Assembly (NCBI GenBank): GCA_963971405.1
Contig: OZ020491.1
Span: 27,675,019 to 27,739,018 of the forward strand
Length of the DNA: 64,000 nucleotides
Source of the DNA: Psococerastis gibbosa
Lineage: Eukaryota > Arthropoda > Insecta > Psocodea > Psocidae
Direction of reading: 5' to 3'
Every line of letters begins with the position of its first letter. Positions within the stretch are counted from its first letter, which is position 1. A model generated the notes under the pieces. That model did no database searches, had not been told where the DNA came from, and was given only the letters and a program-made list of their open reading frames with translations. The position numbers and the translations under genes are program-made. Positions 8,661-58,549 of this stretch are shown here, piece by piece.

Positions 8661-8730
8661 TGTGGGCTATGGGGCCAAATAACAAGTGCAAACTAGGGTA
8701 ACTTGACTTGACACTATAAGTTATTATCAG

Positions 8731-8935
8731 GACATGTATAGTGTAGTGGTACGGACTCTGACTTTCACACGAAAGGTTGTTGGTTCGAGTCCCACACTGG
8801 CTACATTTTCTGGCCATGCTTCGGAGGGCATGTAAAGCAGGCGGTCCGGGCCTTCCTAGTTGAGTGTAAGAGAGGGCTTTATAGCCCTAACTCCGCTAGG
8901 TTGGCTTAGTAATAGAAACAATAAAAAGTCCTTAT
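8731..8935 (+). mobile_element. SINE-A, near-complete reference copy
   Basis: A tRNA-derived head with A box (TAGTGTAGTGGT) and B box GGTTCGAGTCCC is followed by a family-specific body (CATTTTCTGGCCATGCTTCG, GAGAGGGCTTTATAGCCCTA) and the tail GCTTAGTAATAGAA plus A-rich sequence. The head looks closest to a Val-type tRNA in its CGAAAGG region, but that assignment is uncertain. Transcription would be by RNA polymerase III from the internal promoter, with mobilisation by a partner LINE. About a dozen copies are in the window. Confidence 0.88.
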
Positions 8936-18771: not shown

Positions 18772-18968
18772 GACATGTAGCGTAGTGGTACGGACTCCGA
18801 CTTTCACCCGCAAGGTTGTTGGTTCGAGTCCAACACTTGTTACATTTTCTGGCCATGCTTCGGAGGGCATGTAACGCAGCCGCCCCGCGACTGCCTAGTT
18901 GAGTGTAAGAAAGGGCTTTATAGCCCTTATTCCGCTAGGTTGTGCTTAGTCATAGAACAAAAAGTCAT
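18772..18968 (+). mobile_element. SINE-A copy
   Basis: A complete head with A and B boxes (TAGCGTAGTGGT, GGTTCGAGTCC), the body and an AACAAAAAGTC tail. It lies 500 bp from another copy in the same orientation. Confidence 0.85.
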
Positions 18969-31789: not shown

Positions 31790-32303
31790 AGAGATACTAA
31801 ATTGAGGATATATAAAACCCTTATCAGGCTTTTTGCAACATACGCCTCGAAAACCTGGATTCTTACTGTCAATGACGCAAACCAACTGCGAGTATTGGAA
31901 AGAAAGATAATAAGGAGAATCTATGGGCCCCTATACTAAGACGAAGAGTTGCGTATAAGAAACAACGCCGAAATAGACGCAATACGGAGAAGACATAGTC
32001 CGGTTTATACGATGAAAGTGCAACGCATATAAGATGGCTGGAACACGTTGTAAGAATGTCAGACGACCGCATGCCGAAAAAGATGCACAAAGCAAACAAA
32101 GACGACTGGCGTCCTCGAAAACGCTGGAAGGATAAGTTGGAAACTGACCTTCGCGAGTTGGGAGTCCGTAGATGGTGGAGCTTTGTACAAAACCGAGATG
32201 ACTGGAGGAGTGTTGTCCAGCTGGCCAAAACCCACCAAGGGCTGTAGATCCAGAAGAAGAAGAAGAAGAAGAAGAAGAAGGAGAAGAAGAAGAAGAAGAA
32301 GAA
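31790..32303 (+). pseudogene. Non-LTR retrotransposon 3' end with (GAA)n tail
   Basis: Frame 1 encodes LRIYKTLIRLFATYASKTW and ERKIIRRIYGP, typical of the RT C-terminal region. After a frameshift the frame continues with MSDDRMPKKMHK, DDWRPRKRWKDKLETDLREL and WRSVVQLAKTHQGL before the stop at about 32245. An AGAAG-type microsatellite (32250-32303) forms the 3' tail. Another copy of this tail, in the other orientation, is at 51955-52150. Truncated and frameshifted, hence inactive. Confidence 0.82.
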
Positions 32304-32847
32304 TTGATATTTCATTAGGCGTTGAATTATTTACACTTCTAAGGCTTTTCCCCACCATTTGTCTCTCAATTCAGGTTTATAATAAGTCTATAACCGTTCA
32401 CAGCGGCACCGCAATCATCAAAGACAACCTTGTTCATACGATTAAGATAAGGTCCAGGTACTTATTCAGGTTGTTATTATCTCTGATAGCCTGCTGCTAT
32501 TTAATTAGACTTTAAATCAAATACTGCATTAAGTCCATTCCAAGTAGTACGGGATACCTATCTAATAAGTCAAAAAAATTGCTCATTATCAGGGGTATTC
32601 AGTTTACTAAATTGGCGCAGTCTGTTACAAGTGTAATTTTGTCTCATGCAGCCTGTTAACAATGTTATGGATTACCCCGGACGCAGGCGCGGATCTACGG
32701 CTAAGGGGGCTAAAGCCCCCCCCCCATTAGGGACCTCAAAATGCGTAAAACCCCACTATTTCTGTCCTATTTTTCACAAATTTTCTCCCGGGGGAGAGGA
32801 CCAGTTTGCCAATGGCCAGAAATAAATAAATAAATAAATGATGACGT

Positions 32848-35748: not shown

Positions 35749-36483
35749 CTTACTTCTTACTTCTTAGTACAGGGCTTCCAGCTCAGGTGATGCCGACTGC
35801 CTGATGTCTCAGAAATGCCCTTGACGCTAGTGCCCACATGTTCGGAGTGCACAGGATCTTTTGATGTGCGCCCTCCTTTTGTCCAACCTGATCCCGTAGT
35901 TTGTCCCGTAGTGTGCATGGGGCCGAGCACTGCAGGAGTATGTGTTCTAGTGTTTCATTAGCTAGACCGCATGCACGGCATACTGGAGATTCGATTAGAT
36001 GAAAACGGTGTAGGTATTCATTGGTAGTAATGTGGCCTGTTCTTGCTCTAGCAGCAAAGGATGCAACGCTTCTGCTTATCCCGCGATACTGTACTGGTGA
36101 AGCCGGCTTCGGTTGTATTGCGTACAGGGCTCTACCTGTGGAGGAAACCCTCCATCTTTGTATCCATTCTTGAAGCAGGACTCTGTCAGCAGCATTCTTG
36201 CAGTGTGTTAGTGAAAACTGGGGTTCTTGAATTGGTGCCATTTTTGCCGCGTCTTTTGCTATGCTATCAGCTATTTCATTTCCAGAGACACCGCAGTGAG
36301 CAGGGATCCATTGCATCGTTATCTTATTTTGTTTGCTTATTACATTTTTCATTAGTTCTCTTGTTTCTTCTATACGAAAGTGATAGGGTCCTGGAAATGC
36401 CCGTAACAGAGCTTGAAGAGCTGATCTGGAATCGGTTAGGATACAAATTTCTTGATTGTTATATATCATACAGCATTGCAGTG
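35749..36483 (-). pseudogene. 5'-truncated non-LTR retrotransposon: RNase H domain and zinc-knuckle C-terminus, with TSD
   Basis: The minus-strand frame (36469-35783, 228 codons) is uninterrupted. It holds an RNase H-like domain, with ILTDSRSALQAL near the start and WIPAHCGVSGNEIADSIAK about residues 53-71, then a C-terminal CRACGLANETLEHILLQC zinc-binding pattern. This is the usual end of Jockey/R1-type ORF2. The insertion is bounded by 13-bp duplications CTCAATCCACTTA (35736-35748 and 36484-36496), with a (GTAA)-like tail at 35749-35766. The upstream reverse transcriptase and endonuclease are missing, so the copy cannot move. An open frame and clear duplication argue for a fairly recent insertion. 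Confidence 0.88.
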
Positions 36484-45461: not shown

Positions 45462-45565
45462 GTAGGGGCTAGTGGCCCAGCAATTAAGACGACGCCCCGG
45501 TTAGGCGTAGATCGTGGGTTCGAATCCCACCAAGTCCAGCAGTTTTTCTATATCCTCTAGTTTAT
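45462..45565 (+). mobile_element. SINE-B with the best-preserved tRNA head
   Basis: The A-box region is TAGTGGCCCAGCAATTAAGA. The segment ACGCC-CCGGTTA-GGCGT forms a perfect anticodon-like stem-loop, and GTGGG-TTCGAAT-CCCAC forms a perfect T arm. Position 33 is C rather than U, and the acceptor stem is poor. It is followed by the SINE-B body start (TTTTTCTATATCCTCTAG), so it is a SINE head and not a tRNA gene. Confidence 0.7.
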
Positions 45566-54186: not shown

Positions 54187-54305
54187 TATATACTGTTAAG
54201 GAGTTCGAAAACTGTGTCCCGCAATCTGTGTAAGAGACAGTCACATATCATTATATTAAAATGTAGAGGTGTATTTCTTCAACGACGGTTTTGATAATAA
54301 TAATT

Positions 54306-54470
54306 CTCTCTCGCTCTCTCTCTCTCTGTCTGTCTCTCTGTCTGTCTGTCTCTCTGGCTGTCTGTCTCTCTGGCTGTCTGTCTCTCTGTCTGTCTGTCTC
54401 TCTGGCTGTCTGTCTGTCTCTCTGTCTGTCTCTATCTCTCCGTGTCTCTCTCTGTGTGTGTCTCTGCTGT
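54306..54470 (+). repeat. (CT/CTGT)n microsatellite
   Basis: CTCTCTCTGTCTGTCTCTCT-type repeat. It creates three overlapping spurious low-complexity frames of 87-101 codons (Ser/Leu/Cys-rich forward, Arg/Asp/Gln-rich reverse). Confidence 0.92.
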
Positions 54471-54627
54471 CTTTCGCCTTTCCCCACCCAGTATTCGTTG
54501 GACAAGGAGCATATAACCAATACAGTACATAATAATACGTTTACCAATACTACCATTACTATAACTATGTAATAACGTACGTAATACTGTTCAATTATAT
54601 AAATAATACTGTCCCCAATATGAAAAC

Positions 54628-55439
54628 AACCGGTCCGAGTTTACTCGAACATGCTTTCCAATTTATCAACATTAGTAGACAGAGACAATGAGTAATTTCA
54701 TGGTAAATAATTTTATTATGGTTAGATTTCTGATTTTTGGGGGTGGGGGGGGGGGGTTTCCACCTGACGGCACTGGAGGTAAGGTAAATTCTAGATAGGT
54801 CCGACCAACACATTACCACACAGCAATAATAGCAGGGCACGCAATGCATTTGAGCGTGAATTTTCATCATTAAAAAAAAAAAAACCAAATAGTTTTTTGG
54901 GAAAACAACGTGTCCGGTTTCGTTACTCAATTTAACACCTAAAACATGTGTGAAGGTAAAAATCGTGGATAGAAAGGTTTCTTTTATTTTTTTTAGTCAT
55001 TTTTCATGAAAATTTAGTTATTTTTATTTTTTTACCCCCAGAAACAAACTATCAAGGGGCGACCCGCCGCATTTTGTCAACATTAATAACGACTACAATT
55101 TATGGAAATTTAAAACAAATCGTTGGAGCCGTTTCTGAGAAATAATTTTTTTTAGATTTTTTTTTTTAGTTTTTTGAGAATAAGACCCCCCAAATTTAGT
55201 TGGCCCAAAAAAAAAATTATGCCGAGGTATGATTTTTGTGAACTTACATGCTAAATTTCATCAAAATCGACAGAGTAGTTTGCCCGGAAATCGATGAACA
55301 GACGGACAGACAGGCTTGTCGTAAAAAACACTTTTTTGGGTTCCTGGGACCTCAAAACGTGTAAATCCATTGAAATCTCGGAATAGAAAATTTCGACCAT
55401 CACAAAGCTTTTCTTATACTACGTATAAATTGGAAAGCA
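54628..55439 (-). mobile_element. Helentron/HINE-like element, full-length copy D11
   Basis: Minus strand from TGCTTTCCAATTTATACG (55439) to GGACCGGTT (54628). (CAGA)n is short. It ends 350 bp upstream of the eIF4A-like ORF. Confidence 0.78.
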
Positions 55440-55729
55440 ATAATAATAATAAAGTCTTCATTGAAAAAAAAATGTTTAGATAGGCCTAAGTCTACAATTA
55501 ATCTATACATTTCCTGCGAAATTCAGCTTTTTGCTAAGAACGTGGGGGTCTCCGATTCTTTATGGCAGGGAACCCCGACTATTTTAGCCAAATCGACGCC
55601 TATCTATATAATAATTCTTTAATGGTCCACTTCTGCGCAGTTTCGACAGTTTAGTAACCAGTTGATTTTTGCACGATGCAGATCCACTTGCGTAACGGGT
55701 TGTAACAGAAAACGTCAGTCCAGTTCGGG

Positions 55730-55738
55730 TATATATTT
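55730..55738 (+). promoter_or_regulatory. TATA-like box upstream of the eIF4A-like ORF
   Basis: TATATATTT lies 53 bp before the ATG at 55791. If used, the 5' leader would be about 25 nt. Chance occurrence is easy in AT-rich DNA. Confidence 0.3.
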
Positions 55739-55790
55739 GTGTTTCTGCTGTATTTAATAAGCTATTCATTTAATTACAAATATTCAAGAT

Positions 55791-56909
55791 ATGGAGCAGC
55801 AAAGTTTCGATGAAATGGGACTGGATGATGATCTTATTCAGCAATTGAAATCACTGTGCATTGACACTCCAACACCACTGCAAAAAGGTGCGATTCCAAC
55901 GTTCATGTCACGTCGAAATACTATAGTGCAGGCCGAAAGGTGCTCAGGGAAAATGTCGGCGCTCTGTATATTTCTTGTGCAAATAATCCAGCCTGGAATC
56001 CTTCGTAAGCCCCAAGCTGTTATTGCAGTGCCCACATGGGAGGAAGCACGCGAGATCTCATGGTGGCTCATGGCGCTTGGTGCCCCTATGAATATTACTT
56101 GTAACGAACCGAGCGAATCGGTTCGGGACCCGTTTGACGTGGAGAAACTCAGTAACGGGATTGACGTGGTTGTAGGAACTCCGAAATGGATTGAAATAAT
56201 AATGCGTAATGGTCTCTTATCCACAGATTTTGTTGATGTATTCGCCCTTGTTGAGACGCAGATGGTAAATGGTATGTTCAAGGAGGAAATTGACTTTATT
56301 CGTGCCAATTTGCCATTAGATGTTCAAGTGGTTTCATTGTCCCATAGCTTACCTGAGGATATATTGAACACTACAAGAAAATTCATTCCCACCCCCTTCC
56401 GTATAATGACCCTTTTTGATTTTGGGTTTGTTGACGATAAATTAGGTGGACTTAAACACTACTTGGTGTCTGCACCGGACAAGTTGGAAAAATTTCAAGA
56501 AATATGCAGAAAACTGAAGATTTGGCGTTATCATACGATTGTTTTTTGCAACACGAAAGCCGCCGTTGACGATGTTGCTCGATTTGCGGATACGCAGGGT
56601 TTTTTACCCCTAGCCATGCATGCTGGTACTAGTAAATCTGATCAGAAGCATCTTCTGAAGCGATTTTGCACGAAGTTCCGTCGGCTTCTGGTCATGACAG
56701 ATCTCTTTCCCCTTTGTCCTTTAACAAAACAACAAAAAATTATTATCAACTACGATGTACCGGCGAGATATAAGGATTATTTCCGTAGAACACGTTTATG
56801 TAAAAATAATCTCTTTATCATAAATTTGGTGTCTTCCGTAGAACTCCACCGAATGGTCGAACTTAAAGGGTTCTTCAACTTAAACTTGGAAGAATTAACG
56901 ATGGACTAG
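55791..56909 (+). CDS. eIF4A-like DEAD-box protein with degenerate catalytic motifs, 372 aa
   Basis: An intact single-exon frame. ATG has G at -3 and +4, and an in-frame TAA at 55758 rules out a longer start. It aligns with eIF4A through both RecA-like domains: Q motif TPTPLQKGAI (Q31); motif I is AERCSGKM (48-55), keeping GK but losing the final T; Ia is PTWEEA; Ib is TPKW (130-133); DEAD is replaced by VETQ (154-157); SAT by SHS (184-186); IV is IVFCNT (250-255); V keeps only TD (303-304), its R and G gone; NYDVP (320-324); motif VI HRIGR is replaced by FRRTR (331-335). The length is slightly under the usual roughly 400. ATP hydrolysis and unwinding are therefore unlikely. An unbroken frame amid decayed DNA suggests it is kept as a protein, perhaps a regulator or RNA/eIF4G binder. 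No introns, which fits an old retrocopy; no poly(A) tail or flanking duplication remains. Confidence 0.85.
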   Translation: MEQQSFDEMGLDDDLIQQLKSLCIDTPTPLQKGAIPTFMSRRNTIVQAERCSGKMSALCIFLVQIIQPGILRKPQAVIAVPTWEEAREISWWLMALGAPMNITCNEPSESVRDPFDVEKLSNGIDVVVGTPKWIEIIMRNGLLSTDFVDVFALVETQMVNGMFKEEIDFIRANLPLDVQVVSLSHSLPEDILNTTRKFIPTPFRIMTLFDFGFVDDKLGGLKHYLVSAPDKLEKFQEICRKLKIWRYHTIVFCNTKAAVDDVARFADTQGFLPLAMHAGTSKSDQKHLLKRFCTKFRRLLVMTDLFPLCPLTKQQKIIINYDVPARYKDYFRRTRLCKNNLFIINLVSSVELHRMVELKGFFNLNLEELTMD

Positions 56910-57037
56910 TCTTCGCCATTTATTTGCAGCCATGTTGTAGGCTGAGTTTGAGTGGCATATTTCTTCGAGACCCTGTTTTAACTGTTTCTTTAAGTTTTTA
57001 ACTAGTGACGACTGGTGTATTTGAACCTAATGTCTTA

Positions 57038-57384
57038 AGAGTGTACGTCCCGTAGGAAATAGGTACCCCTAAATCCGTTGTTTTCTCAGGTTTCTTATTT
57101 TTTTTATTTAGTTAACAAAGCAGGATTTTAAAAATTTGGCTCATTGTAGCAGACTACTTTATTTATCATATAATAGGGTATTTTTAATTTTTGGTACTGT
57201 AGCTTTTTCATAAAAATGATTGAGAGCTAAAATTTCGTGTCCCCAATAATACCCTATTACATGATGCATAATGTAGTCTTCTACAACTTAAATTGAAATA
57301 ATTTTAATAACTTGCATAGTTATTTAAATAATAAGTAAAAATAAATATTAAATTTCGGTCTGCCAATTTCCTACGGTACACTCT
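57038..57384. mobile_element. Foldback MITE, TA type
   Basis: Starts AGAGTGTACGTCCCGTAGGA, ends TCCTACGGTACACTCT, with TA on both sides. It begins 128 bp after the stop of the eIF4A-like ORF. 57385-57835 is AT-rich without other features. Confidence 0.8.
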
Positions 57385-57835
57385 TATGGAAAATTTTGTA
57401 TTTTATATTAACTTTCCATAGTCTCTGGAACAAGTTAATAATAAATTTCGTCAAAATGACTCTAAGAACTATTTTTTTTTTAATTTGGAAAATTGTTTTA
57501 AAATGTAAACACGATTTTCTTACAAAATTAAAATCTGCCAAATTTGTCCGTAGGTAATCGATAAGTGACTCAACTTTTAATTTAACATGCTCCTACTATA
57601 ACTCTTGCTCTCTATGTTCTTATACATCAACTTAGAATAATTTTATACTTAATTTGTTCTCAATTTCATATTTAGCATGTTTTCATTTCATATTGCCTTA
57701 AATAGTGTTTTAAATTTCATTTTACAATACTCCAATAAAATACTACTACTACTGAATAGTAAAATCTCATTGCAAGAATGTAGCATGCTTTGCGTAATTT
57801 CCTAAATTTGAGTTAACCTCTAATCTTTCAATACT

Positions 57836-58213
57836 TAAAAGTGTACGTCCCATAGGAAAAAGATAGGTAACCCAAAATCTATTGTTTTTACAGACTTCCT
57901 ATTTTTTGCTTAATTAACAAAGCAAGAAATTAAAGATTTGGGTCATTAAAGCTTTGGAAGGCTACTTCATGAAGCATATAATTAATGGGGTGTTTTTAAT
58001 TTTTGATACCGTAGCTTTTTCATAAAAATGAGTGAGGGCTAAAATTTCATGTAAAATAGATAAATGAAAAAACTGCAAAATAAAAAATTAATAATACCCT
58101 ATTATGTGCTGCATAAATTAGTCTTCTACAGCTTAAATGATCCAATATTTTATTAACTTGCATAAGTTAATTAAATAAAAAATAAGATGTATTAAATTTT
58201 GGGCTGCCAATTT
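57836..58213. mobile_element. Foldback MITE, TA type, worn ends
   Basis: Left AAGTGTACGTCCCATAGGAA, right CTTACGGGACGCACGCTCTG, with the same palindromic interior (TAGTCTTCTACAGCTTAAAT). Confidence 0.72.
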
Positions 58214-58223
58214 CTTACGGGAC

Positions 58224-58549
58224 GCACGCTCTGAAGGGGATATGTAGAAAATAGACACCCATTGAAGATTTACTGACTTTTTATTGTTTATTTAATTAGC
58301 AAAGCAATATTGAAGAAATGCCTCATTTAAGTTGTAGAAGACTAATTCATGCATTGTACTATAGATAAGTTTCATTTTTGGTACTACAGTTCGTTCAGGA
58401 AAATTATTGGGGATAAAACTAGTAGCCTACACCAAAAATTTAACACTATCATACGATACATGAATTAATTAATCAAATCTTTAATAACGTGCTTATAATT
58501 AAATTTAAAAAATCATTTAATTTTGGTGTGTCAATTTTCTACATCCTTT
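58224..58549. mobile_element. Foldback MITE, variant subfamily, adjacent to the previous one
   Basis: Left GGGATATGTAGAAAATAGAC, right GTCAATTTTCTACATCC. It abuts the preceding copy within about 10 bp. 58550-58885 has no named feature. Confidence 0.68.

Follow-up and report, generated by a model that had tools for sequence, protein, structure and literature searches.

Kinases and proteases have well-known pseudo-versions, but few pseudohelicases have been described; bacterial PriA is reportedly named in one paper on the subject. The nearest case in kind is Utp25/Def, a DEAD-box-like protein of the SSU processome with degenerate motifs and a non-enzymatic role, which according to the accessible part of PMC9539457 is conserved from yeast to human, carries a disordered N-terminal region, can dispense with its motifs Ia and VI and is called by the authors the first fully validated pseudohelicase. 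Intronless copies of DEAD-box genes are represented by those of PL10/DDX3 in the accessible text of PMC2874800. Among the matches listed on pseudohelicases and on eIF4A retrogenes or duplicates, in searches that covered the subscription literature thinly, we found no pseudohelicase derived from eIF4A. The locus described here is a candidate for one and, if our reading is true, it would reveal what in the body of eIF4A, a highly conserved helicase, remains of use once the chemistry is gone and would yield concrete binding predictions.

The window analysed is a stretch of 64,000 nucleotides from the insect Psococerastis gibbosa, and the features discussed are collected in the table. The sequence-only reading had reported a frame of 372 codons free of stops that covers both RecA-like domains; it is indeed intact from ATG to TAG, with Pfam matches to DEAD (1.7e-14) and Helicase_C (6.3e-08) and homology over residues 5-371. 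Nine ATG frames of at least 100 aa occur in the window and this is the longest of them (the next has 228 aa), lying in a stop-free stretch of 382 codons compared with 233 for the next longest. With 372 open codons having a probability of about 1.5e-12 under the flanking base composition, and 10-29 stops in each of the five other frames across it, a chance open frame is rejected. Its G+C content by codon position is 0.50, 0.34 and 0.43. Since an in-frame TAA precedes it with no ATG in between, 55791 is the first possible start. The frame sits in a stretch that is single-copy within the window, between repeat families that have further copies there; self-comparison finds 41% of the window repeated inside it, where the sequence-only reading had called almost all else decayed transposon.

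Features of the locus and of its flanks (positions in the window; dot, no strand assigned)
Feature	Position	Strand	Basis or remark
Left repeat copy, used as neutral yardstick	54612-55450	+	49/720 private changes (7%); 9 frameshifting indels in 839 bases
Stretch holding the frame, single-copy within the window	55453-57027	.	Window self-comparison
In-frame TAA upstream of the frame	55703-55705	+	No ATG between it and 55791
Intact open frame, putative pseudo-helicase of the eIF4A family	55791-56909	+	372 aa; ATG to TAG; Pfam and PDB matches
Q-motif remnant IDTPTPLQ, residues 24-31	55860-55883	+	Pro and Gln kept, Phe to Ile
Walker A remnant AERCSGKM (from SQSGTGKT), residues 48-55	55932-55955	+	Alignment
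Motif II remnant LVET-QM, residues 153-158	56247-56264	+	One residue deleted
Motif III remnant LSHSL (SAT to SHS), residues 183-187	56337-56351	+	Alignment
R240 to K243, positions of the MIF4G-contacting acids (eIF4A-I D265/E268, eIF4A-III D270/D273)	56508-56519	+	Alignment
Motif IV VFCNTKA, kept	56541-56561	+	Alignment
Motif V remnant MTDLFPLCPLTK	56694-56729	+	Arg and Gly lost
Motif VI remnant FRR---TRL, residues 331-336 (HRIGRSGR to RR---TRL)	56781-56798	+	Alignment
Right MITE-like repeat, used as yardstick over 57028-57386	57034-57386	.	32/260 private changes (12%); 3 frameshifting indels in 359 bases

The reading that we favour, and consider probable, is that of an intronless and fast-evolving gene of the eIF4A/eIF4A-III branch, probably retrocopied, which would have been kept even though it could no longer bind or hydrolyse ATP or clamp RNA. 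Like eIF4A-III/DDX48, the core of the exon junction complex and its best PDB match over the whole frame, the predicted protein has a two-lobe layout and a recognisable motif IV; unlike eIF4A-III it is without the ATPase and RNA-clamp motifs, carries R and K in place of the CWC22-binding D270 and D273, is about 34 residues shorter at the N terminus and is missing the last few residues. It is like Utp25 in being DEAD-box-like with degenerate motifs and, as we propose, a non-enzymatic role, and unlike Utp25, as the accessible part of that paper presents it, in being a bare core nearest eIF4A with a much more recognisable parent and in being known from one locus.

Membership of the family was judged from scores and from a tree. 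Human eIF4A-III is the top match among PDB sequences (147.6 bits, E 4e-42), followed by kinetoplastid eIF4A (137 bits), yeast eIF4A (133.5) and eIF4A-I (133.4), and at a distance by archaeal MJ0669 (101), CshA (81), Dhh1 (78), DDX6 (73), vasa (64) and DDX39B (57). A tree of 16 rows sets the protein, human eIF4A-III, human eIF4A-I and yeast eIF4A as one clade (99/100) against 12 prokaryotic-type rows, the other eukaryotic DEAD subfamilies being compared by score only. On this basis the protein is assigned by descent to the eIF4A/eIF4A-III subfamily, with the warning that its row has an extremely long branch (6.95) and was flagged for odd composition. The translation factor eIF4A-I belongs to the same subfamily, and the tree does not decide which paralogue is closer: neither of the two groupings is rejected (p-AU 0.29 and 0.41), the diagnostic sites read 27 eIF4A-III-like to 17 eIF4A-I-like among 107 that differ (p 0.17), and identities are 108/362 with eIF4A-III and 98/367 with eIF4A-I. 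No intron interrupts the frame, whose homology spans the full helicase core, and on that account it is likely a retrocopy, the absence of introns being the one feature that points this way, as neither a poly(A) tract (no run of at least seven A in 56910-57833 downstream) nor a target duplication (no exact direct repeat longer than 8 bases shared by the flanks that were compared) was found. A viral origin was considered and rejected: viral contigs searched with the protein alone gave no relative and, when searched with an alignment of the protein and eIF4A-III, gave three loci with 25% identity over 93 residues, while among viral structures the top three (two of them giant-virus by name) are 19-21% identical compared with 29% for human eIF4A-III.

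The helicase motifs were read from an alignment of the protein, human eIF4A-III and 83 DEAD rows, of which 80 come from genome loci and 3 from viral contigs. At 56 motif positions, whose limits are those that we presume, 14 residues are identical to human eIF4A-III and 4 are deleted, and outside the motifs 94 of 310 positions (30%) are identical; the 83 rows average 80% identity to eIF4A-III at the motif positions (minimum 66%) and 33% elsewhere. The body has thus diverged from eIF4A-III about as far as that of the 83 rows, whereas the active site has collapsed, as it has in none of them. The protein keeps 28 of the 63 sites that are constant in 95% or more of the rows, and its N lobe is better kept (70/201 identical) than its C lobe (34/146). 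No conserved patch emerges along the protein: identity peaks at 0.52 over 25 residues, no more clustering than chance would give (p 0.37). The acidic D401/E402 of eIF4A-III are kept as E367/E368, to which we attach no function.

Most of the motif changes listed in the sequence-only reading stand in the alignment, including those of Walker A and of SAT to SHS and the loss of the motif V Arg and Gly and of the motif VI residues, and so does the retention of motif IV. Two of its descriptions needed amendment: the DEAD site is lost as claimed, but VETQ does not replace it residue for residue, one position of LDEADEM being deleted in the aligned LVET-QM, and the Q motif said to remain does keep its Gln and Pro but has Ile in place of Phe. 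Motif Ib reads TPKW. In DEAD-box proteins the GG, Ib, V and VI residues serve as the RNA clamp and, given what is known of these motifs and the changes in them, both the ATP chemistry and the canonical RNA clamp of the protein should be lost. Walker A, DEAD, SAT, V and VI, intact in a functional DEAD-box ATPase, are not intact here, and what is left is a helicase-derived sequence with its catalytic motifs lost, as expected of a pseudohelicase at the level of sequence.

The locus combines an intact frame and two-domain homology with a selective loss of motifs and no decay. To gauge how far this departs from neutrality, a back-translated human eIF4A-III frame was evolved under an AT-rich substitution model (kappa 2, chosen; 1000 runs), and by the time it had drifted to 29.8% identity it held on average 16.3 stops and never fewer than 6, in counts that exclude indels and frameshifts, compared with 0 observed. 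The replaced residues are also milder than neutral (mean BLOSUM62 -0.47 vs -0.79, s.d. 0.11), a measure that is not decisive alone because the mildest of the 1000 neutral runs reached -0.45. The flanking repeats provide a second yardstick, on the assumption that the gene was already in place when they inserted: the wear of either one predicts about 15 disabling hits in the 1119-base frame, in which there are none, giving a Poisson probability of about 2e-7 for an intact frame. The right repeat starts 125 bases past the stop and has inverted ends with AGAGTGTAC and TA on both sides, and such ends and flanking TAs are as would be expected of insertion into pre-existing DNA. Simple pseudogene decay is rejected on these two counts, and the stops and frameshifts that build up with divergence in a processed pseudogene are missing. 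Because the simulated stops and the predicted hits are absent, the frame is, on sequence grounds, a protein gene that was constrained until recently or still is. The claim that the active site was lost while the frame was kept, the opposite of how a pseudogene decays, is upheld by simulations, flanking repeats and motif counts alike, and a present function of the frame appears likely.

The same evidence weighs on the other histories that could be proposed for the frame. It might be an ordinary processed pseudogene of eIF4A-III, left open by luck, and it is intronless, as are copies in transposon-rich DNA that are usually dead; yet no neutral run came as low as 5 stops even with frameshifts left uncounted, and 12 frameshifting indels have accumulated in the two neighbouring repeats, so we give this account almost no credence, and reject it unless the divergence arose under constraint elsewhere and the copy is new. 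The frame might also be a young duplicate, segmental or by recent retrocopying, of an active pseudo-helicase gene elsewhere, the copy itself not being needed. The repeats date the neighbourhood and not necessarily the copy, which leaves room for such an event, but the poly(A) run and the direct repeat sought around the frame are both absent, and we regard it as very unlikely. A gene that died recently, having been constrained and already catalytically degenerate until lately and having as yet gained no stop or frameshift, is the more serious alternative, although still an unlikely one. With no disabling hit, at most about 1.8% neutral change (5% level) can have accrued since constraint was lost, which allows for a death within that span, and the locus lies in repeat-rich DNA; the time window required is nevertheless narrow, and start, frame and stop are all intact.

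A retained gene could also act in a dominant-negative way, competing with eIF4A or eIF4A-III for eIF4G, CWC22 or RNA; the sequence-only reading had proposed competition for eIF4G or RNA. Both lobes are homologous to those of eIF4A, and in the available text of the papers cited below it is these lobes that partners bind. The binding patch, which was not in the earlier list of changes, speaks against it. The predicted eIF4G contacts of eIF4A-I, transposed from a yeast structure, are D265, E268, D296, T298 and R45 (accessible part of PMC7470955), and in the protein they read R240, K243, G270, L272 and Q17, so that all four positions of the published eIF4G-binding mutant differ from eIF4A-I. That mutant (D265R + E268K + D296A + T298K) was impaired in eIF4G binding, and E268R or D296K alone lowered it, as the same portion of PMC7470955 reports; D270 and D273 of eIF4A-III align with D265 and E268, and eIF4A3 D270K/D273K was unable to bind CWC22 (PMC4482076, text available in part). 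Two of the four changed positions carry the same letters as the eIF4A-I mutant.

The patch is to be read with some care. Arg stands at the D265 position in 75 of the 83 comparison rows and Gly at the D296 position in 77, where human eIF4A-III itself has Asn, and D265 alone may matter little because the D265R/eIF4G S738D pairing was dropped when the mutant eIF4G still worked without D265R (PMC7470955, in the part available). At the E268 position Asp is found in 67 of the rows and Glu in 8, which makes K243 clearly unusual, and since R and G are usual in other DEAD proteins it is on K243 that the weight of the argument mostly falls. From the alignment, the acidic MIF4G contacts of an eIF4A that binds eIF4G or CWC22 are replaced by R240 and K243, and competition for eIF4G or CWC22 is disfavoured, as far as the partly available sources go. 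With the GG, Ib, V and VI residues gone, the protein is unlikely to compete for RNA through its usual clamp. Taking both sides together, we consider the competitor improbable, and with moderate confidence expect the protein to have no MIF4G partner. As a separate observation, Arg at the D265 position in 75 of 83 prokaryotic-type DEAD rows and Asp in human eIF4A-I and eIF4A-III raise the thought that the acid at this position may be an acquisition of the eIF4A branch tied to MIF4G binding.

The favoured reading, a retained gene of the eIF4A branch, would then run as follows. A copy of an eIF4A/eIF4A-III-branch gene, probably made by retrocopying, would have evolved very fast and lost its RNA clamp together with the ability to bind and hydrolyse ATP, while selection retained it as a protein gene. 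The two RecA-like lobes presumably still fold but would no longer close on ATP and RNA, leaving the protein as an ATP-independent scaffold or adaptor. As its MIF4G-binding patch has also changed, a MIF4G protein (eIF4G, CWC22) is a less likely partner, and a scaffold with another partner is therefore favoured. More tentatively, and with some doubt as to the whole, the gene could be a lineage-specific eIF4A core that serves a novel partner as a scaffold independent of ATP and of MIF4G, perhaps within RNA particles of the germline, in which case DEAD-box pseudohelicases would have arisen once more, apparently independently, this time from a factor of translation or of the exon junction.

Structure modelling, which the sequence-only reading had called for, is compatible with the fold and does not establish it. 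With an alignment of 51 of the 83 loci, prokaryotic-type helicases, AF2 returned a model with a mean pLDDT of 85.6 and a pTM of 0.68; from the protein alone the pLDDT was 37, and because the model is driven by the alignment it speaks for compatibility and is no proof of folding. Ranked by E-value in Foldseek, eIF4A-III chains lead the PDB matches (TM about 0.68), but by TM-score Sub2 (0.81) and Pdcd4-bound eIF4A (0.77) are both closer, so the shape of the model does not point to eIF4A-III.

Elsewhere in the window a second MITE-like palindromic repeat lies beyond the right one, at 57834-58227. A frame of 228 aa at 35783-36469 on the minus strand, with RNase H and reverse-transcriptase zinc-binding domains, is probably the open 3' piece of a non-LTR retrotransposon. 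Long simple repeats (RQRDR-type and poly-Arg) occur in the open frames of more than 100 aa at 54251-54556 (minus strand) and 32198-32515 (plus strand), which advises care in calling such frames genes. A tRNA-Glu-like sequence at 18772-18843 is embedded in a SINE-like repeat of which 11 further partial copies occur in the window (53957-53847 and 8727-8843 among them), and because of these copies it looks like a tRNA-derived repeat and not a tRNA gene. ARAGORN and Rfam agree on a tRNA-Thr (anticodon GGT) at 45466-45538, whose 3' part and flank show 75-85% identity to three further sites in the window, and which may be a gene or the head of a repeat.
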